Assembly: GCF_902712915.1 (NCBI RefSeq) | Contig: NZ_CACTIA010000005.1 | Location: 2,256,001 to 2,320,000, forward strand | Reading direction: 5' to 3' | From: Acidiphilium sp. C61 | GTDB taxonomy: Bacteria > Pseudomonadota > Alphaproteobacteria > Acetobacterales > Acetobacteraceae | Length of the DNA: 64,000 nt | Part shown: in pieces, positions 28,344 to 37,552 of the stretch | How positions within the stretch are numbered: position 1 is the stretch's first letter | How the letters are laid out: every line of letters begins with the position of its first letter | Translations under genes and position numbers: made by a program | Notes under the pieces: generated by a model | Told to the model about the DNA's origin: nothing | Databases searched by the model: none | What the model saw: only the letters and a program-made list of their open reading frames with translations

Positions 28344-28837
28344 AGCGAATCAGCTTGTGCGTAACGGTTCCAGTTAAGGCGGACATACTCAGCCATACCC
28401 CGAGCGGGGGCATAGGGTGGATAGATTGCTTGGAAGGCGGCAATCGCCGCTACAATGTTCTTCTGTGCAAGAATATCCGTATGTTTCAGTAGATAAAGGA
28501 GCGCGATACTTGGCGACCGAGATTGACCCTGATTGCAGTGGAGTAGGATTTTGGAGTGGCTGATATTTTTGTGGATGGTCTCGATTGCCACATCGATGAT
28601 TTCTACCGGAATGAAGTTTGGATTCGGTGCGTCAATGAGGTTGAGAATAAGCTGCCCTTCGCGCCACGCATAAAAATACTCTGCGCCCTTAGGTGCGCTC
28701 TTGCCCGGAGCGTACCCTAAAGCCCGGCTATGATACGGTTCTTTGCAGGCATGGATGAAAAACCAGCCTGCTTGACCGCTAAGGCGCCGCTCATCCGTCT
28801 CCGATCCAACAAAGAGATTGGGAATAACCTCAATCAT
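28340..28837 (-). CDS. dual-specificity protein phosphatase-like protein
   Basis: A 165-residue cysteine phosphatase. The active-site loop HCNQGQSRSPS near residue 100 is a full HCX5R signature with the usual serine after arginine, and an upstream acid (Asp in LNLIDAPNPNF) is in the expected place. It may dephosphorylate proteins or a phosphorylated small molecule. It sits inside a type I restriction operon between hsdS and the membrane protein, with 4-base overlaps on both sides, so its level is tied to the restriction complex. Its substrate is unknown. Confidence 0.8.
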   Translation of the reverse strand: MIEVIPNLFVGSETDERRLSGQAGWFFIHACKEPYHSRALGYAPGKSAPKGAEYFYAWREGQLILNLIDAPNPNFIPVEIIDVAIETIHKNISHSKILLHCNQGQSRSPSIALLYLLKHTDILAQKNIVAAIAAFQAIYPPYAPARGMAEYVRLNWNRYAQADSL

Positions 28838-30090
28838 GCCATGGCCTCCAGGACTTTTTCGGCGTCGCGGACACGGATTTCGCCGGACATAAGCTTGGGC
28901 AGGAGAAGGTCCCGGGTGGCGGCTAGGGTCTCGGTCTCCTCGGAATTCGACCGCATTCGCTGACGCAATGGTGCAACTAATCGGTCAAACTGGTTCCTTA
29001 GTTCGTCGTCGCTCCAAGGCACGGGGAGACGATAAACGTTGTTGCGATTTAGACCGGGTACCGCCGCATCGGTGTTCATAGATTCCAGGCCAAGTGTCTG
29101 TAAGTGATAGTAGCAAAAAGTTAGTGGAGCCATCGGCTTTATATAAAAGACCGTATCGATCGGAAAAAAGGGGCGGTCTTCCCAATAAAGTACCCCCACA
29201 GTTCCTTTTCGGCCAATGATGACGGATGGACCTTCAACTAATGCCTCATTGTGGTATCCGGTAACGCCACCCGACCCGTAAACCGGTACCGGTCCAGCCG
29301 ACCTTTCGCTTGCCTTCAATGCCTTGCCATAGGCGAGCTCAAGAATATCTTCGACACGTCTTTGGCCCCACCCCTCCGGCTTGCCTTCATCATCCAGGCG
29401 GTCGGGGAAGAGGGACCAGATTTCTGGGGCGAGGTAGGGGGGGCGGCCTTCGGCTTTGGCGCGGGTGGGGCCGAAATCGACAAACCAATCCTTGAACACC
29501 GCCCGCGCCATCGCCTCCAGCGTCTCGTTCATCTGGCGGTCGAGTTCGATTTTGTCGTCCAAGGCCCCCAGGATGGACGCAATCCCCCGCTGGATTGGCA
29601 ATGGCGGGTACGGGAGTTTGAATGATCTCAAGGATGCTAAGGGCTGCCCAATTCCGGGTGTGCCTACTTGTGAGGCATACTTTAGAATTTCTTCTCGGCC
29701 AGCCCGTGACTTAAAAAAGTAATAGACAAAAAGTGGATTAGCTTTTTTTTCGTCCAGATCAATTTTCATAAGGCTGGTGGACAGAAAATAACGTGAATAT
29801 GCGCCTGTTGGCACCAGGGCAACTTCGCCCACGGAGCCACGATGAGGGAAAACAAGTGTGCTAGGTTTGACTACACACCTAGGCATGGAGTCAGCGAAGT
29901 TATCAGATATATAAACCCAATCGCCCTTCCATGCCCGGGTGTTTGAAATATTTGTTCCTCGAATAACAGGAACGCCCGAGGGCACATAGGTATCTGCTTT
30001 CATCGCAGAGCCGAAAGGGCCGATGGCGATTGCGCCGTTATTAGGTGCAGCAAGAGTACCGAGAGAGACGTCAGTCCATTCACCCATCAC
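28834..30090 (-). CDS. hsdS: type I restriction enzyme specificity subunit HsdS
   Basis: The 418-residue DNA-recognition subunit. Two target-recognition domains are visible (about 10-165 and 235-390), each followed by a helical spacer. The first spacer holds the family motif MARAVFKDWFVDFGPTRAKA near residue 190, and the C-terminal spacer ends TRDLLLPKLMSGEIRV. Target specificity cannot be read from sequence. It lies between fic and the phosphatase gene, overlapping each by 4 bases. Confidence 0.94.
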   Translation of the reverse strand: MMGEWTDVSLGTLAAPNNGAIAIGPFGSAMKADTYVPSGVPVIRGTNISNTRAWKGDWVYISDNFADSMPRCVVKPSTLVFPHRGSVGEVALVPTGAYSRYFLSTSLMKIDLDEKKANPLFVYYFFKSRAGREEILKYASQVGTPGIGQPLASLRSFKLPYPPLPIQRGIASILGALDDKIELDRQMNETLEAMARAVFKDWFVDFGPTRAKAEGRPPYLAPEIWSLFPDRLDDEGKPEGWGQRRVEDILELAYGKALKASERSAGPVPVYGSGGVTGYHNEALVEGPSVIIGRKGTVGVLYWEDRPFFPIDTVFYIKPMAPLTFCYYHLQTLGLESMNTDAAVPGLNRNNVYRLPVPWSDDELRNQFDRLVAPLRQRMRSNSEETETLAATRDLLLPKLMSGEIRVRDAEKVLEAMA

Positions 30091-31187
30091 GACCGCCCCT
30101 CCGGCATGGCAAGAAACAACCCCACGAGCGCCGTATTGATATAATAATTATTCCGCCCGGCCTGGTGCTTATCCACAAACCCAGCCTCCGCGAGTGCATC
30201 AAGATATTTCGCCGCCGTCTGGCGTGATTTCAGATCAAGCTCCTTCTGCACATATTCGATGCGCGTGTACGGATGGCGGAACAGATTGTTAAGAAGCTCC
30301 TGGCTATAGAGTTTTGGCAGTTGCGCCCGCATGCGCTGCTTCACGCTGACCATCTGGCCGCGTATGCCTTCCACCAGGCCCAAGGTGGTTTGCGCTGTCC
30401 GCGCCACGGCCTCCAGCATATACATCACCCAAGCCTCCCACTCCCCCGTGTCGCGCACGGTTTGCAGCAGCCGGTAATAATCGGATTTGGTGCGGGTGAT
30501 GTGGCCGGAGAGGTAGAGGATGGGAATGTCCAGCAGCCCTGTGCGGGTGAGGTAGAGCACATTGAGGATACGGCCAATGCGGCCATTGCCATCCGGGAAA
30601 GGGTGGATGCTTTCAAACTGGTGATGGATGAGCGCCATTTTTATCAGCGGGTCGAGGCCGGAGACACCATCATCGTTCACAAACCGCTCCAGGGCGGACA
30701 TATGCGCCAATATCTCCTGCGCATCCTGCGGCGGCACAAAAACAATCTCGCCATTGGACTCGTTTTTGAGCGCCGTGCCGGGCGTGGCGCGGAACCCATC
30801 GTCCCGGCGCTTGAGCAGGCGAAACATATCAATGAGCGTGCCATTGCGGATCAACCCGCCGGTTTGTTGCAGGTGGGCATAGCCCAGGCGCAGCGCATCG
30901 CGGTACAAGGCTACTTCCTTGGCGGCGGGCGATTGCGGGCCTTCAGGGAAGAGGTCGGCCTGGAACAGCTCATCCTGAGTGGTGACGATGTTTTCCACCT
31001 CGGAGGAGGCTTTCGCTTCCTGTAAAGCCAGCGTGTCGATGAGAATGCCCTGGTTAGGGATCGTCGCCGCCCGGCCCTTGAGCTCCGCCAGCGCGCGGTT
31101 GGCCGCTGCCAGCGCCTTCAACACCGGTACGGTTTCAAGGTCCACCGCAGGGGGCAGTTTCGGGATAATGTATGTTGGCTTTAACAT
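30087..31187 (-). CDS. Fic-domain AMPylase-like protein with winged-helix C-terminus
   Basis: A 366-residue Fic protein. The catalytic motif HPFPDGNGRIGR is complete (near residue 205). An N-terminal inhibitory helix with SSEVEN (near 60) fits the [S/T]xxxE[G/N] rule, so this is a self-inhibited class II Fic. The C-terminal 90 residues form a winged-helix region (RQTAAKYLDALAEAGFVDKH), which suggests DNA binding. Its start is 83 bases after hsdM and its end overlaps hsdS. Fic genes occur in other type I loci; the target protein is unknown. Confidence 0.9.
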   Translation of the reverse strand: MLKPTYIIPKLPPAVDLETVPVLKALAAANRALAELKGRAATIPNQGILIDTLALQEAKASSEVENIVTTQDELFQADLFPEGPQSPAAKEVALYRDALRLGYAHLQQTGGLIRNGTLIDMFRLLKRRDDGFRATPGTALKNESNGEIVFVPPQDAQEILAHMSALERFVNDDGVSGLDPLIKMALIHHQFESIHPFPDGNGRIGRILNVLYLTRTGLLDIPILYLSGHITRTKSDYYRLLQTVRDTGEWEAWVMYMLEAVARTAQTTLGLVEGIRGQMVSVKQRMRAQLPKLYSQELLNNLFRHPYTRIEYVQKELDLKSRQTAAKYLDALAEAGFVDKHQAGRNNYYINTALVGLFLAMPEGRS

Positions 31188-31196
31188 GAGAACCCA

Positions 31197-31245
31197 GACA
31201 TGTTAAAAAAACTTCGTTTTATGAACATGTCGAGTCGATATGTCC
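31197..31245. promoter_or_regulatory. repeated ACATGT-type operator cluster before fic
   Basis: In the 83-base gap between hsdM and fic three related boxes occur: GACATGTT (31197-31204), GAACATGTC (31223-31231) and GATATGTCC (31237-31245). The near-palindromic ACATGT cores spaced by about 14-27 bases look like operator sites. The Fic protein's own winged-helix domain is a candidate ligand (inference). Confidence 0.45.
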
Positions 31246-31270
31246 ATAAAAACCGAGTTTCGCGCACATA

Positions 31271-32872
31271 TCATGGGGTCACCAACTTGAGCCGCTCCCG
31301 GATGGCGGCCGTGAGCTCATCGGCCTTGGCGAATTGGGCCTCCAACGTGGCATTCAGGGCCGCGAATCGCTCGGCAAACGGCACATCATCCTCTTCCGCC
31401 TCCGCTGCCCCCACATAGCGGCCAGGGGTAAGCACATAGCCGTGCCCCGCAATCTCAGCCCGGCTGGCGGCCTTGCAGAAGCCGGGGATGTCGGCGTAAT
31501 CACCTGCTTCAGCCTCGCCGCGCCAGGCATGATAGGTGCGGGAGATTTGCTCGATATCGGCGTCTGAGAACTCCTTGCGGGTGCGGTCCACCAACGCGCC
31601 GAGTTTACGGGCGTCAATGAACAGGATTTCGTCCCGGCGGTCGCGGAAGCGGCCATTCTTCTTGTTGCGGCTCAAGAACCACAAGCACGCGGGAATTTGG
31701 GTGGAGTAGAAAAGCTGGCCGGGCAGCGCGATCATGCAATCCACCACGTCGGCCTCCACCATGGCACGGCGGATAACGTCCTCGCCACTCTGGGCGGAGG
31801 ACATGGAGCCATTGGCCAGCACCACACCCGCCGTGCCGTTGGGTGCCAAGTGGTGGACGATATGTTGCAGCCAGGCGTAGTTGGCGTTGCCCACGGGCGG
31901 GGCACCGAATTGCCAGCGCACATCCTCCCGCAGGCGTTCGCCGCCCCAGTCCGAGATATTGAAAGGGGGGTTGGCGAGGATGAAGTCGAATTTTTTGTCG
32001 CGCCATTCATCCTTGTGGAAGCTGCCCTCGTTGTTCCAGGCGATGCCGCTGGCATCGATTCCACGCACGGCAAGGTTCATTTTGGCGAGGCGCCAGGTCG
32101 TGTAATTACTCTCCTGGCCATAGAGGGCGAGCTGACCGATGCGCCCGCCATGGGCTTCCAAAAACCGCTCGGCTTGCACAAACATCCCGCCCGAGCCGCA
32201 GCACGGATCATAAACCCGCCCCTCTACGCCACGCGCAAGGTCCGGGAAGGGCTCCAGCATTTCCACCAACACGCGCACGACGGAGCGGGGGGTATAGAAT
32301 TCGCCGCCACGCTTGCCCTCGGAGCCCGCGAAGCCGCCCAGGAAATATTCGTATACGCGGCCCAACAGGTCCCGGGCCTTGGCGCCCTCGACTCCAAGGG
32401 CGATGCCAGAGATGAGGTTGATGAGCTCGCCCAGCATCACCTTATCGAGAGCGGGGCGGTTATAGTCCTTCGGCAATACCCCTTTGAGGGTGGGGTTTTC
32501 GGCCTCAATGGCGGCCATGGCATCGTCAATGAGCTTGCCGATGGTGGGCTGCGGGGCATTAGACTCAAGATGAGACCAGCGAGCCAACTTAGGCACCCAG
32601 AAAATGTTCTCACCTATATACTCGTCGCGGTCCTCGGCAGCTTCGGGGTCTTCGCGCAGCAGGGTTTCGTGCCTAGCCTCGAAAGCTAGGGAAATATGAC
32701 GCAGGAAGATCAAACCAAGAACGACGTGCTTGTAATCCGATGGCTCAAGATTCTTACGCAGTTTATCGGCGGCGGCGAAGAGGTCGCGTTCCAGGGCCAA
32801 TTGCCCTTCCGGAGCAGGGTTTTGTGCCGATTTAGTAGTCTCGCCCGATTTACGTGGCCGCCCTCGTGCCAT
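31271..32872 (-). CDS. hsdM: type I DNA methyltransferase subunit HsdM
   Basis: N6-adenine methyltransferase of the type I complex, 533 residues from ATG 32872 ([14 protein letters not shown]); GGAG precedes it, while the longer start at 32905 has a weaker site. The helical N-terminal domain ([20 protein letters not shown]) is followed by the SAM-binding motif [15 protein letters not shown] and catalytic motif [13 protein letters not shown]. Complete and probably active. First gene of the restriction operon. Confidence 0.94.
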
Positions 32873-33036
32873 GGTATCCAAGTCTCCGGTGTTCGTAATG
32901 TGCATCCATTGGTTAATTCATGGAGCAGGGATTGCAACCGGGGAAAGGGTGCGTTCACACATTTGGGCCAAGTATGGTTGCAAGGACGAGTAAGGGATAC
33001 GGCCTGGAAGGAGCCGAAGGTCAAAAAATCTAATTT

Positions 33037-34335
33037 TTACAGCTCGTTGAGTTTTGCAATCTCTCTTAGTGCAGCTTGCTCGAAGCGCCTCACCTGGCGG
33101 ATAATTTTTTGGTTTGTGCCAAAGGCAGTTGCACTGCGCCTGCCGTAGGATGAAAAATTTCGAAGTGTCCGGAGTGCCCCTTCTTCATTAATTTTGATAT
33201 ACGAAAAGCGGCGGTAAAGCTTCTTTGTGTGCACTTTACTTGGTGCTCCCGCTACGGCACGCCACTGCGCTGATTTTTTGGCACGCCGTATGGCTCGTTT
33301 CATCTTGCGCCACTGTCGGGCGAGTGAACTTTCACGAATCGCGGCTCCTGTTTCGCCAAAAGTGAAACCGAGATATTGCGCCATTTTAGTGGTGCTGGGC
33401 ATAGCCCGCCCCTTCTCGAAAAGAGTCTTTTCGGTCTTGTGCGGAGCAATCTCCAGGTTTTCAGCAGTGATCAGACCTAAAATCTCGGCTTCTATCGCCA
33501 GCGCATCTTCAGGTCTGCAAATGACAAGAATGTCGTCGGAATAGCGACGGTAGAACGCACTGACCTTATCGCAACAAGCTCTGGCTGCTGCGTCAAAGTC
33601 CATCATGTAGAGATTGGAGATAGCGGCACTAATTGGTGTGCCCTGCGGGATTCCGCGACGATGACCTTTGGCCAACTCCGGATTGGCATGAAAGGCAATC
33701 CCCTCCGCCTTCAACTCCTCCATGCTGGCGATCCGGTTACGGCTTCTCTCCTTGAGGCGCTGCCCGAACAATGGATGGGCCTTCAGTTCTTCAAGATCGA
33801 CATAGTGAAAGCGGGTAATGAAGCGAAAGACCTTGTACCAGTCATCCGCAAGCTCGATGACTCCCAGTAGAGATTTCAGCCGCCGCTTGAGAAGGCCATG
33901 GTCGAGAGTATCAAAAAAGCTCGTGATGTCGAAAGCCAAGAATACGACAGGGGCCGCTGCCTGCGCGAAAGCCATAGCCTTTGCTGCAAAATCATAGTTG
34001 CCCAGACCAAGCGCACGGTAAGCGATGACGTTGTCCGAGATGCCTGTCGCCTTGTATCGGGCGTCGAGCGCCTGATTAATCTGATGGGCATAGTAGGAAA
34101 GAATGCAGGCATCCCGGTGGGACGCATATTTGATTGGGCGTTCTTTCTGAGTGATCTTCCGCGTCCCAGTCGTTGCGCATTTTTTGTAGCGTGTCTCTGT
34201 CTTCGCGTAGTGGATGAGCGGTGAGAATGCGTGCCGCGACACTACGGCAGGGTCCATCACCTTGCGGGCAAAGGCGTCATTGACGGGCAGGTCAAAGTGC
34301 CGATAGCGGCGCGGCTTCAGCCAATCTGGCGGCAC
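33037..34335 (-). CDS. drt2: defence-associated reverse transcriptase, DRT2-like
   Basis: A 432-residue reverse transcriptase of the Unknown-Group type. Motif A is FLAFDITSFFDTLDH with catalytic Asp136; a middle motif is RGIPQGTPISAAISNLYMMD; the catalytic box is YSDD at residues 265-268 (FYRRYSDDILVIC), where described DRT2 enzymes as I recall them have YCDD. N-terminal stretches YRHFDLPV and RPIKYASHRDACILSYYAHQ match DRT2 as I remember it. I chose the GTG at 34335 because GAGGGGG lies just upstream; the longer frame to 34419 runs through the RNA structure. No maturase domain or DGR repeat is present. It should copy the upstream RNA into concatemeric cDNA. Confidence 0.88.
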   Translation of the reverse strand: MPPDWLKPRRYRHFDLPVNDAFARKVMDPAVVSRHAFSPLIHYAKTETRYKKCATTGTRKITQKERPIKYASHRDACILSYYAHQINQALDARYKATGISDNVIAYRALGLGNYDFAAKAMAFAQAAAPVVFLAFDITSFFDTLDHGLLKRRLKSLLGVIELADDWYKVFRFITRFHYVDLEELKAHPLFGQRLKERSRNRIASMEELKAEGIAFHANPELAKGHRRGIPQGTPISAAISNLYMMDFDAAARACCDKVSAFYRRYSDDILVICRPEDALAIEAEILGLITAENLEIAPHKTEKTLFEKGRAMPSTTKMAQYLGFTFGETGAAIRESSLARQWRKMKRAIRRAKKSAQWRAVAGAPSKVHTKKLYRRFSYIKINEEGALRTLRNFSSYGRRSATAFGTNQKIIRQVRRFEQAALREIAKLNEL

Positions 34336-34344
34336 GCGGTCCCC

Positions 34345-34641
34345 CTCTCGCAGAGTTCGGGGGACTGGCCCTGACCCTGGGCTCCGGCCAAAACCGGGCG
34401 TCCCCCGAACGCACGCCACCTTCTGTCAGCCTTTGCGTTCAGCATCTCAACTCCAAACGCCTCGCTAACACGGGTCTCGAAACGCGAGGTGGTATAATGT
34501 AACCGTGGAGGTTCGAGCGATGCTCGATGTCTCATTCAATCTGGCGGCGGTCATCGTGATGCTTGTCGGCACCATGTGGCCGGGTCACCATATCGAGGTT
34601 GACAGTCTCAACAGTCCGACCGCCAAACCGATTCCTGACGG
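34345..34641 (-). ncRNA. structured DRT2-type non-coding RNA
   Basis: About 300 bases upstream of the reverse transcriptase have no conventional gene but are full of paired segments. Examples are an 11-bp perfect stem (34355-34365 with 34400-34410), a 7-bp stem GAACGCA/TGCGTTC (34434-34440 with 34408-34414) that competes with it, a 6-bp stem CCTCGC/GCGAGG (34484-34489 with 34460-34465), and a hairpin TCGAGC/GCTCGA (34513-34518 with 34522-34527). A near-consensus promoter starts it at about 34641. Size and position match the RNA that DRT2 enzymes copy. The exact 3' end is an estimate. Confidence 0.75.
34484..34612 (+). other. neo: predicted template/repeat unit of a nearly endless ORF (neo)
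   Basis: This 129-base segment (antisense to the ncRNA, the sense of the cDNA) is flanked by AAC: 34481-34483 lies just before it and 34610-34612 ends it. Joined head to tail, TTGACA (34599-34604) and TATAAT (34493-34498) come to lie exactly 17 bases apart. GGAGG (34507-34511) sits 8 bases before ATG 34520. The 43-codon unit in that frame contains no stop, so translation runs endlessly through the repeats. The repeat includes a hydrophobic stretch LAAVIVMLVGTMW and then PGHHIEVDSLN. In plain genomic DNA the frame instead ends after the unit at TAA near 34649, with no well-placed -35. Confidence 0.85.
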
Positions 34642-34647
34642 CAAATT

Positions 34648-34676
34648 ATAATGGAAGCAAGGTGCTTACGCGTCAA
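34648..34676 (-). promoter_or_regulatory. promoter of the DRT2 ncRNA
   Basis: On the minus strand TTGACG (34676-34671) and CATTAT (34653-34648) are separated by 17 bases; an overlapping TATAAT (34650-34645) is 20 bases away. It would start the RNA at about 34641, upstream of the template region and reverse transcriptase gene, and differs from the predicted neo promoter, which faces the other way. Confidence 0.7.
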
Positions 34677-34768
34677 GGGCCGTTCTGAATTCGCACCGAT
34701 GGCCGTAACCGCCCAACGCCCAATACAGGCAGATACTCGTAAAGCCCCAGCTTCCTAATCGAGGCTTA

Positions 34769-37552
34769 TTAAAGCGCCAGACCCTCGGATGAGGCAGCTT
34801 CATGCTCCTGCGCCGTGCGACTCCCCATACCGGCATTCACCTCCGCGCCAAGCGCGGTTTGCTTTAGTCCCGCGCGCTCCAGTAGAGCACTCACAAGCTT
34901 GCCCCGGTCATTGGTGTAAATGGCGGTGGCCTCCTTGGCGCGGGAGAGCGCTACATAGAAGCTCTTTTGATCCAGCAGGTTCGTGGCGGCGCTATCGGCG
35001 TGGATAAAGGTTCGCTCAGCGGTTCGCCCCTGAGCCGCGAAGGCTGTCGCCACATAGGCGTGGGCAATGTGCTGGTCTCGGGGGCTATCCAGGGTAAGCG
35101 TCTCAACCTTGCCCCTGGCCAGCCGGACCGTGGCACTGCGCGTGCCGGGGTCAATGGCGGTAATCTCGCCCTGCTGGCCGTTGATCCGCCCCAGGGCGCG
35201 GTCATTGCGGGTGAACTGCATCTTATCTCCCGCCCGCAGCTCAATTGTCTCGGCGCTGAAGGCTTGAGACTGCGCCGCCCCCCATTGGCGAAGCCGCCAG
35301 TCGATCGTCCTGCCGGTCTGGTCAGCCAGCAAGATCGCCGCCTTGCCGGTGTCGATGCCGGTCACCCGGTAGGCCTGCGCCTTGGATACGCCCTTGTCGG
35401 CATAATCCTTGGCGAAGCGGATCATGTCGCCGATGGCATAGCTGTGCAGGTCTTTGGCCTCGGCACGGGTCATATCCTTGGAAACAAACCTTGGCACGGT
35501 GATCGCCGGGCCGTGAAGCTGGCCACGATCGGCAAGGGCATGGCGGATTTCCTGGGTCAGCGTATCACGCCCTTCGCGGGACGGCTCGATCACCAGCGCC
35601 TTGCGCCTCTCTTTGGTGTCCAACCTGGCGTAATCCTGGGCGATCTGGGCAAAGCGGGCCTCGCGGGTGCCTTGCTCGACGATGCGCCCGCCGCCCGAAT
35701 CCAGGGCGGCCAGGGCCTTCTTGGCATCACCAGCCAAGCTGGCCTCCACCGCTGTTTTGGCGTGCTCGTTGGTCTGGCGCAGGATTTGGGTGAGGCGGGC
35801 AGTTTCCATGCCAGCACCCTGTAGCTGGGCGAAGGCAGCGCCTGCCTCAACGGAACTAAGTTGCGCCGTGTCACCCACCAGCAGCACCCGCGCCCAGTGG
35901 GATTCGGCCAAACCCAACAGCTTAGCGGCATCGGCGGTTGAAATCAGCGAAGCCTCATCCACAATCCATAGCCGCTCCTTCGTTGTGGGGCGGCCTGGCG
36001 CGAGTAAATGCCGGGCCAACGTGTCGGCGCGGACCTCAAGCGCCTCTCCCAAAACCTGCGCCGCCGATGCCGTGGGGGCGAGTGCTACCACCTGGATGCC
36101 CCGCGCCTCGGCCTCCCGCGCGATGGTCGTCAGCACCGTGGAGGTTTTGGCGGTGCCTGCCGCCCCCTGCAAACCAATAACCCGGTTGCGGCTGGCAAGA
36201 ATTTGCCCCGTCGCTATCCGCTGCTCGTCGGTCCAGCCATGTCCCTGATGGGCGCTGCGCCGCTCGGCCTCGGCAACAACACGAGCGGCGGCAACCGGAG
36301 ACAAGATCGGTTCCACCTGCTGACGGGCTTGCTCTTCCAGCCGCAACATCGTGGTCTCGTTGGCGATACTGGCGGCGGTGGTGAAGCCCTCAAACGTCAC
36401 TCCGCGCCGGTCAAGGCACGCGCGCGCCTCCAACCCGCCGGTCTTCTCCGAGCGGGCGATGGCGGCGGCAATGTCATCATGTCCAACGCGGCCCATGCCA
36501 AACCGCCCCGCCGCCTCATGCAGCGCCGTGGTGGAGAATACGGATTGCCGCTCGCCCAGCATCGCCGCCCCCTGCGCCACGGCCCGGTCAGCCGCCAGCT
36601 CGCGTGTAAACTCCTGGTCAACGCTGAGGGTGGCATTTCCCCGCGCCTCGGCCTGGGCAACCAAACCCCGCCGTGCTTGTTCATCCCATCCGGCTGTATC
36701 GGCGGCCTCACGCCATGCGCCGATCAGCTCGGCATGAGGTAAGGCTTCTTTGGCCAGCCGTGTATCCAGCGCGGCGATCTGCTTCTCGGCGGCGCTGGCC
36801 TTGGCCCGGCTTTTGCCCCGCTCGGCCAACCGGGCCTCAATCGCCGCACTGCGCTGACTGAACGCCTCCAGGGTTTCTTCGCCAATACCGGCAATCTCGA
36901 AGGTCGAATCCTTGCCGCGCTCAATGGTGTAACCAAGACGCTGCACTTCGGCAGCCAACTCCTGGCGAAAAACGGCGCCCATCTGCTTTTGCATCTGGTA
37001 GAACGCGCGCGGTTCCAAGCTGCGCCATTGCCCGGCCTCATCGCGGGTCATGTTAAGAATGACATTGTGGGTATGAAGCTGCGGGTCGAGCGCCCGGCTG
37101 GTGCCATGCCGGAAAGAGGCGATGACCAGATTGCCGGTCGCCTCCCGCCGGACAGAGCCGTCCTCCCGGATGCGGGTGGCGGTAAAATGCTGCTCCGCCA
37201 GTCCCAGCGCGGTTTTCACAGCCCGCTCATGGGCAGCGATGAGGCGGCGGTCCCCCGTCACCTCAGCCATGATCGAAACGGATTTGGGTGCGCTGAAGGT
37301 CACATCCCAGCCGGGCCGGTGCTCCCATTCACCGTCGCGCATCGTGCCCAAGCTTTGACCGGCGACATGCCCCTCCAGCAGGCGGGCGAACTGCTCTCGG
37401 TCAACGGTCCCGGCCAGGTTCAGTACCTGCGCGCCGTGGCCCAACCATTCCGAGGGGGCAAGGCCCCCTTCGGCATAGTAAGATTCATCTGCCTCATAGT
37501 ACCTGGCGGCCTGCCCGGCGCTGGTCAGGGCGGAGATTGTCGCCACCATCAC
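34769..37552 (-). CDS. MobF-family relaxase/helicase (TrwC/TraI-like)
   Basis: A 927-residue conjugative relaxase with fused helicase. The N-terminal relaxase has the MobF tyrosine pair in YYEADESYYAEGG (residues 18-30) and the metal-binding histidines in ALDPQLHTHNVILN (near 160). The helicase half has Walker A in GLQGAAGTAKTS (near 460), IVDEAS (near 515), and the late motif YVALSRAKEATAIY (near 880). It should nick oriT, stay covalently bound and unwind the transferred strand. It overlaps the coupling-protein gene by 4 bases. The order accessory protein, coupling protein, relaxase is that of trwABC in R388. Confidence 0.93.
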   Translation of the reverse strand: MMVATISALTSAGQAARYYEADESYYAEGGLAPSEWLGHGAQVLNLAGTVDREQFARLLEGHVAGQSLGTMRDGEWEHRPGWDVTFSAPKSVSIMAEVTGDRRLIAAHERAVKTALGLAEQHFTATRIREDGSVRREATGNLVIASFRHGTSRALDPQLHTHNVILNMTRDEAGQWRSLEPRAFYQMQKQMGAVFRQELAAEVQRLGYTIERGKDSTFEIAGIGEETLEAFSQRSAAIEARLAERGKSRAKASAAEKQIAALDTRLAKEALPHAELIGAWREAADTAGWDEQARRGLVAQAEARGNATLSVDQEFTRELAADRAVAQGAAMLGERQSVFSTTALHEAAGRFGMGRVGHDDIAAAIARSEKTGGLEARACLDRRGVTFEGFTTAASIANETTMLRLEEQARQQVEPILSPVAAARVVAEAERRSAHQGHGWTDEQRIATGQILASRNRVIGLQGAAGTAKTSTVLTTIAREAEARGIQVVALAPTASAAQVLGEALEVRADTLARHLLAPGRPTTKERLWIVDEASLISTADAAKLLGLAESHWARVLLVGDTAQLSSVEAGAAFAQLQGAGMETARLTQILRQTNEHAKTAVEASLAGDAKKALAALDSGGGRIVEQGTREARFAQIAQDYARLDTKERRKALVIEPSREGRDTLTQEIRHALADRGQLHGPAITVPRFVSKDMTRAEAKDLHSYAIGDMIRFAKDYADKGVSKAQAYRVTGIDTGKAAILLADQTGRTIDWRLRQWGAAQSQAFSAETIELRAGDKMQFTRNDRALGRINGQQGEITAIDPGTRSATVRLARGKVETLTLDSPRDQHIAHAYVATAFAAQGRTAERTFIHADSAATNLLDQKSFYVALSRAKEATAIYTNDRGKLVSALLERAGLKQTALGAEVNAGMGSRTAQEHEAASSEGLAL

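Follow-up and report, generated by a model that had tools for sequence, protein, structure and literature searches.

The DRT2 reverse transcriptase (RT) encoded in the window, by which we mean the whole 64,000-nucleotide stretch of DNA analysed here, belongs to a phage-defence enzyme family and very probably copies a 129-base template over and over, with the nascent AAC end jumping from one GUU to another, and so gives rise to neo, a gene of 43 codons that has no stop, together with its promoter. In the related system KpnDRT2 of Klebsiella pneumoniae, as reported by Tang et al. 2024 and Wilkinson et al. 2024, repeated copying is primed by the 3' end of the ncRNA and a second strand is made on phage infection; the joined promoter is then transcribed and a repetitive protein is translated that stops growth (PMC11100668, PMC12039810). 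By analogy, the RT of the window would copy the template in its upstream ncRNA from a primer at the ncRNA 3' end, and in each round the new DNA end would leave GUU-1 (34610-34612) and anneal to GUU-2 (34481-34483). The head-to-tail copies would create a gene that is not in the genome, and phage infection would lead to second-strand synthesis, transcription from the joined promoter, production of repetitive Neo and growth arrest. Judged from sequence, this is likely a GUU-jumping variant of DRT2 neo-gene assembly and hence a second version of a known defence.

The predicted repeat unit and its junction in the window

The elements of the predicted unit are as follows.

34484-34612, plus strand (cDNA sense): predicted neo repeat unit, 129 nt, 43 codons, with the ncRNA template on the minus strand
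34493-34498, plus strand: TATAAT, -10 box of the junction promoter, 9 nt past the junction
34507-34511, plus strand: GGAGG, Shine-Dalgarno sequence, 8 bases before the ATG
34520-34522, plus strand: ATG, predicted neo start, at offset 36 in the unit
34599-34604, plus strand: TTGACA, -35 box of the junction promoter, 8 nt ahead of the junction
34610-34612, minus strand: GUU-1, the last template bases copied ahead of the predicted jump
34481-34483, minus strand: GUU-2, predicted re-annealing motif (landing site of the jump), 3' of the template

The plus strand reads AAC at 34481-34483 and again at 34610-34612, which corresponds to GUU/GUU in the RNA. The order of TTGACA and TATAAT in the genome is wrong for a promoter; placed head to tail, copies of 34484-34612 give TTGACA-17-TATAAT followed by GGAGG, 8 bases and ATG. 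Frame 0 alone among the cDNA-sense frames is open around the circle, and one unit encodes the peptide ARWYNVTVEVRAMLDVSFNLAAVIVMLVGTMWPGHHIEVDSLN. The predicted unit-to-unit join reads ...GTCTCAAC up to the junction and GCGAGG... after it. The element positions, the 129-nt length, the 17-base spacer, the GGAGG, the ATG and the open frame had all been proposed in the earlier note and were all borne out.

A comparable junction was defined by at least 11 of 12 promoter bases with a spacer of 17, a shared end of at least 3 nt, a length divisible by 3, an open frame and a Shine-Dalgarno sequence with an ATG. Such a junction was found in none of the 1264 other 300-nt tiles of the window (both strands) and in none of 20,000 dinucleotide shuffles of the region, where a promoter score of 10/12 was reached in 7. 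On these tile and shuffle counts, a chance origin of the junction was rejected as unlikely. The joined junction sequence was not found in the genomic window when up to 2 mismatches were allowed. In viral contigs, the joined junction pattern gave 0 matches (a weak test) and the template-border pattern likewise 0; a search of viral contigs with the RT alignment gave 29 pattern matches and 0 relatives.

The reverse transcriptase, the ncRNA and their setting

The remaining features of the locus lie on the minus strand, apart from one hairpin that can be read on either.

33037-34335, minus strand: DRT2 RT, 432 aa, GTG start, YSDD active site
34671-34676, minus strand: TTGACG, predicted -35 box of the genomic promoter for the ncRNA/RT operon
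34648-34653, minus strand: CATTAT, predicted -10 box of the same promoter, spacer 17
34349-34642, minus strand: DRT2 ncRNA, about 294 nt, ends inferred, from an alignment of 27 loci
34620-34640, minus strand: 5' handle hairpin (helix 1; 5 of 6 pairs with compensatory change, 90.1% paired)
34515-34525, either strand: small hairpin GAGCGAUGCUC around the start codon (helices 2-3; helix 3 paired in all lettered cells)
34472-34476, minus strand: GACCC, pseudoknot strand 1, 4 nt past GUU-2
34373-34377, minus strand: GGGUC, pseudoknot strand 2
34350-34416, minus strand: match to Rfam RT-13 (RF03017), 3' domain of the ncRNA, 90.7 bits (gathering threshold 69.1)

By profile and structure match, the enzyme beside the 129-base unit is a DRT2 (UG2) RT: it matched the PADLOC Drt2 profile at 2.7e-131, compared to 1.7e-24 for the best non-Drt2 family, and the KpnDRT2 structure 9c0i at 4.2e-53 in a structure search. 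Its score against the NCBIfam Drt2 model NF041746, 382.6 bits, is slightly below the curated cut-off of 390. The longest RT open reading frame begins at 34419, within the ncRNA. The start is likely the GTG at 34335-34333, 13 bases past the inferred end of the ncRNA, which has GAGGGGG upstream and gives 432 aa, the length of P0001, an RT relative with 97% identity. The predicted minus-strand genomic promoter (34676 to 34648) would start the ncRNA near 34642.

The locus (28834-37552) has a type I restriction-modification system with a Fic gene on one side (HsdM 31271-32905, Fic 30087-31187, HsdS 28834-30090) and a TrwC-type relaxase (34769-37552) on the other; it therefore likely travels with a defence block on a conjugative element. 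When the neighbourhood was compared with plasmids by megablast, 34 records were returned, and among the matches listed the coverage was 9% each.

The consensus structure of the ncRNA has 48 pairs in nine helices, and compensatory changes were seen in 37 of the pairs across the 27 loci. Paired cells made up 95.8%, compared to 84.8% in shuffles and 27.7-47.3% in slid versions, a count made on the same alignment from which the structure was derived. The pseudoknot (helix 5) is 100% paired in all 27 ncRNAs, with compensatory change in 3 of its 5 pairs (for example AACCC/GGGUU, GUCCC/GGGAC and GACUC/GAGUC). Helix 4, which would hold GUU-2, had no compensatory change in the 27-locus alignment. The neo start codon lies within a conserved hairpin, GAGC-GAU-GCUC, that is able to fold in both the ncRNA and the mRNA sense, and may either keep the start site closed or contribute to the fold of the RNA.

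The RT-13 cut-off was passed in 5 of the 7 loci of the GUU clade that were tested (the window, L001, L007 at 2912-2978, L029 and L081 at 2403-2472); L025 was below it, as was L038 with 64 of the 69.1 bits. Both ACA loci tested passed the cut-off of RT-12 (L047 at 2829-2963 and L091 at 1652-1788). Among the loci tested, Rfam RT-12 thus marks the ncRNAs of the ACA type and RT-13 those of the GUU type.

Conservation of the unit, the proposed jump motif and the reading frame

Relatives were taken from one scan of species genomes (the best 80 of 329). The clade set of 50 loci consists of 44 of these 80 (the clade members with upstream DNA), 2 plasmid loci, 3 later loci and the window; the later ones (L103, L106 and L107) were fetched once the unit rule was fixed, and all three pass it. 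From the plasmid matches H1-H28 we fetched H1, H3, H4, H6 and H12, and from the E. coli matches H29-H31 we fetched H29 and H31. Loci L020 and L055, in which the RT is cut at the contig end and upstream DNA is missing, and L085, also without upstream DNA, were left out, as were L086-L089, L092-L098, L104 and L105, which were already represented; one of these, L093, is a second copy of L032 and fell below the -10 threshold. The search expression required GT at both ends of the unit. L026 lay outside the search range and was added by hand with the same anchors, and no clade locus with upstream DNA failed the rule.

The unit is a multiple of three with frame 0 open in 50/50 clade loci, the window included. 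Its length is 129 nt in 38 loci, 132 in 6, 123 in 2 and 126, 120, 114 and 66 in 1 each. At least 10 changes of unit length can be placed on the RT tree (70-row and 92-row versions), all by multiples of 3; if insertions and deletions ignored the frame, the odds of ten such changes would be about 1 in 59,000. The earlier note had anticipated that homologous loci would keep the junction promoter and the open frame despite drift, and this holds in all 50. Its central claim, that the promoter and the endless reading frame form only by tandem copying, is supported both by the chance test and by these loci.

The -10 box is TATAAT in 24/50 loci, with variants elsewhere, and the -35 box is TTGACA in 31/50 and TTGACG in 10/50; weak boxes are present in L032 (CATATA) and in L037 and L039 (TTGCGC). 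A motif resembling a Shine-Dalgarno sequence with an in-frame start was found in 48/50 units, the start being ATG or GTG at offset 36 in 45 and at offset 39 in 3; this combination was not found in the short units of L030 and L026. L026, from an uncultured alphaproteobacterium, has the shortest unit (66 nt, 22 codons, with GTT/GTA flanks). In L058 (Sinorhizobium psoraleae) the RT frame has 7 stops in a pattern like a frameshift, and the upstream unit of 129 nt is still open.

The flanks of the unit are GUU/GUU in 46/50 loci, and in the other 4 the third base is mismatched between the copies (GUU-1 site: GTT in 48/50 and GTC in 2/50; GUU-2 site: GTT in 48/50 and GTA in 2/50). Within 12 nt of these sites, 0/50 clade loci had a valid ACA/ACA unit, and the published ACA rule was rejected for this clade; L106 alone has an ACA pair near both places, which would give 145 nt and is not open. 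Based on sequence, GUU-1 and GUU-2 are likely the positional counterparts of ACA-1 and ACA-2. In both types the first motif follows the 5' handle hairpin and the second immediately precedes the pseudoknot, so that GUU/GUU would do the job of ACA/ACA. The accessible text of the KpnDRT2 reports places the end of the template at base 148 and a pseudoknot strand at G155-C159 (PMC12039810, PMC12596737), so that the order of template and then pseudoknot appears to be common to KpnDRT2 and the clade; the E. coli locus L091, read by eye, has the same order.

These data bear on the strongest of three alternatives, which we consider improbable: that the rolling-circle mechanism is the same and the jump falls a few bases off GUU, or is imprecise, so that the codons at the junction differ. 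In its favour, unit length and spacer set only the offset between the two ends and not the exact base, and there are the 4 loci with a mismatched third motif base. Against it, with the offset fixed by the unit length, the two flanks agree at the three motif positions in 50, 50 and 46 of 50 loci, where the match of GU in 50/50 is partly built in because the search rule asked for GT at each end, and at the next base in 4/50. Among the other flank positions, the one before the motif agrees in 35/50 and the one eleven bases after the first base of the motif in 44/50, and the rest in 0 to 26/50. The AAC/AAC proposed in the earlier note as the shared ends is thus the best conserved run of identity between the template flanks. 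G31, U32, G160 and U161 are invariant in the 27 aligned ncRNAs, and the correspondence with ACA-1 and ACA-2 relative to handle and pseudoknot also argues for a jump at GUU itself.

In 23 units with less than 80% identity, the 523 interior codons hold 0 stops in frame 0; the other two forward frames have 30 and 7, and the three reverse frames 14, 8 and 37. T at codon position 2 reaches 44.4% in frame 0, compared to 13.2% and 14.8% in the other forward frames, and hydrophobic residues 58.7%, compared to 30.6% and 28.0%. In 11 disjoint near pairs, substitutions were more conservative in frame 0 (mean BLOSUM 1.62) than in the other five frames (at most 0.62), and synonymous changes made up 35%, compared to 15-27%. 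An excess of substitutions at the third position was absent from these pairs (38/26/33 at positions 1/2/3, p = 0.33) and was dropped as a proof of coding; Neo therefore seems to be constrained in composition and openness more than in exact sequence. In the predicted structure of one repeat (mean pLDDT 77), residues 2-31 form a single helix, and the likely product, Neo, is a hydrophobic repeat protein, helical for the most part, which would arrest the infected cell.

It is very unlikely that an ordinary small antisense gene, transcribed and translated from the linear genomic copy, accounts for the open frame. Two Rhizobiaceae plasmid records do annotate antisense hypothetical proteins that overlap the unit (L081:2177-2305 and L082:2171-2305, with units at 2213-2341), and the first in-frame genomic stop past the unit lies at 10-17 codons in 20/50 loci, most commonly at 13 codons (10/50), which in the window would be about the place of the -10 box of the genomic ncRNA promoter. 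However, the two boxes stand in reverse order for a promoter in the genomic copy, the codons ahead of the ATG are kept open too, and the stop is not conserved: it lies anywhere from 4 to 89 codons past the unit in 49/50 loci and is absent within 300 nt in 1. A linear antisense gene was rejected, as it would be one without a conserved stop. In L081 and L082, routine annotation picks up a linear piece of the predicted neo unit. Least probable of all is that ncRNA structure and promoter letters account for the whole conservation and there is no Neo protein, a reading consistent with the missing third-position excess and with the folding of the template, and opposed by the absence of stops, the three-fold excess of T at position 2 and the doubled hydrophobicity in one forward frame only, by the ACA controls and eight divergent loci, which lean the same way, and by length changes only in multiples of 3.

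Units in other lineages and comparison with known systems

The procedure used for the clade also found ACA/ACA units of 111 to 132 nt in 9/13 gammaproteobacterial loci, and as a positive control it returned the ACA/TGT unit of 117 nt, the commonest published length, in the E. coli loci L090 and L091. The ACA controls have the same hydrophobic tendency in frame 0 as the GUU units. The gammaproteobacterial loci without an ACA unit are L084 and the Dyella loci L072, L074 and L080. The three Dyella loci each have a 129-nt candidate with a spacer of 18 and another microhomology, which perhaps represents a third type of jump. In L084 (a Photobacterium damselae plasmid), the RT falls inside the ACA group and an ACA/ACA unit was not found in the fixed geometry; a generic scan gave a 111-nt candidate with other letters. 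The ACA rule is thus not universal even within the ACA clade.

In the 92-row RT tree, a branch with support 100 separates the 50 GUU rows from all others, and another (98) sets apart the 9 ACA rows together with L084. Both trees were quick and unrooted; the first (70 rows) included 20 outside loci, mostly unit-bearing, and the 92-row tree 42. Of the 32 loci that belong neither to the clade nor to the ACA group, 10 had an open unit, divisible by three, in the GUU geometry, compared to a mean of 0.85 and a maximum of 4 in 100 shuffled sets of these loci. Four of the 10 belong to Planctomycetota. Some have matched flanks of different letters (GTC/GTC in L061, GTA/GTA in L077 and ATT/ATT in L054), and the units of L071 and L076, with non-GU motifs, may be chance matches. 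With these two omitted, the hydrophobic content of the 8 divergent units is 63.1% in frame 0, compared to 34.8% and 35.3%. A unit in the GUU geometry was not found at the threshold in 22/32 outside loci, including 7 of 8 from Bacteroidota; among those without one are L057, L063, L064, L068 and L079 (Bacteroidota) and L083 (a Calothrix plasmid). Promoters of the Bacteroidota and Calothrix relatives may differ from σ70 boxes.

It is fairly probable that the GUU type is a second branch of DRT2 gene assembly, which spans Alphaproteobacteria and extends with the same geometry into Planctomycetota, and that the letters of the jump were replaced and the junction slid by two bases while spacing and frame stayed fixed. 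The ACA type would then be one branch among several, with a jump code that is free as long as the copies match. We rate this wider reading lower than we otherwise would because the eight divergent units are scattered on the 92-row tree among loci without a unit.

The GUU rule finds a unit in every fetched clade locus with upstream DNA, so that genes absent from a genome become predictable from it, and it also points to units in some further lineages. These results suggest that the mechanism needs matching flanks, the 17-nt spacer, the frame, the handle and the pseudoknot, and that the letters ACA are dispensable; they also tie the Rfam RNAs RT-12 and RT-13 to DRT2. Tang et al. found Neo "more challenging" to annotate in DRT2 clades that are divergent, and raise the possibility of other mechanisms there (PMC11100668). 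The GUU type was not found in print in the open-licence literature, though part of it may be in fig. S6 of that paper, and the same literature held nothing relevant on RT-13 or on DRT2 in Alphaproteobacteria. The earlier note thought the unit possibly new. Its length is not, since 111 and 129 nt are both reported among KpnDRT2 relatives in the accessible text of PMC12039810; its GUU motif and the place of its junction do differ from the published type.

The system of the window resembles KpnDRT2 in having a DRT2 RT next to a pseudoknotted ncRNA, split σ70 boxes that would be rejoined at 17 nt, a unit divisible by 3 and a stop-free frame with a ribosome-binding site. It differs in the flanking motif (GUU instead of ACA), in its RT, which belongs to a separate clade, and in the 3' domain of its ncRNA, which matches Rfam RT-13 and not RT-12. 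While the junction of the ACA type lies 11 nt before the -10 box and 6 nt after the -35 box, in the GUU type these distances are 9 and 8. In the ACA loci fetched, as in the GUU type, the -10 box is read in the same phase (TAT AAT, Tyr-Asn) and the total spacer is 17 nt; thus, frame and promoter spacing are kept and the junction is two bases elsewhere. The ncRNA 3' domain of the window matches all 67 positions of RF03017, a model that covers the 3' domain only, with handle and template upstream of it, and whose entry names no function. DRT10 and telomerase, as described in the accessible portion of PMC12632851, are similar in that repeat addition is guided by a repeated alignment segment beside the RNA template, whereas their repeats are short, non-coding and primed by protein or DNA, and no gene is assembled.
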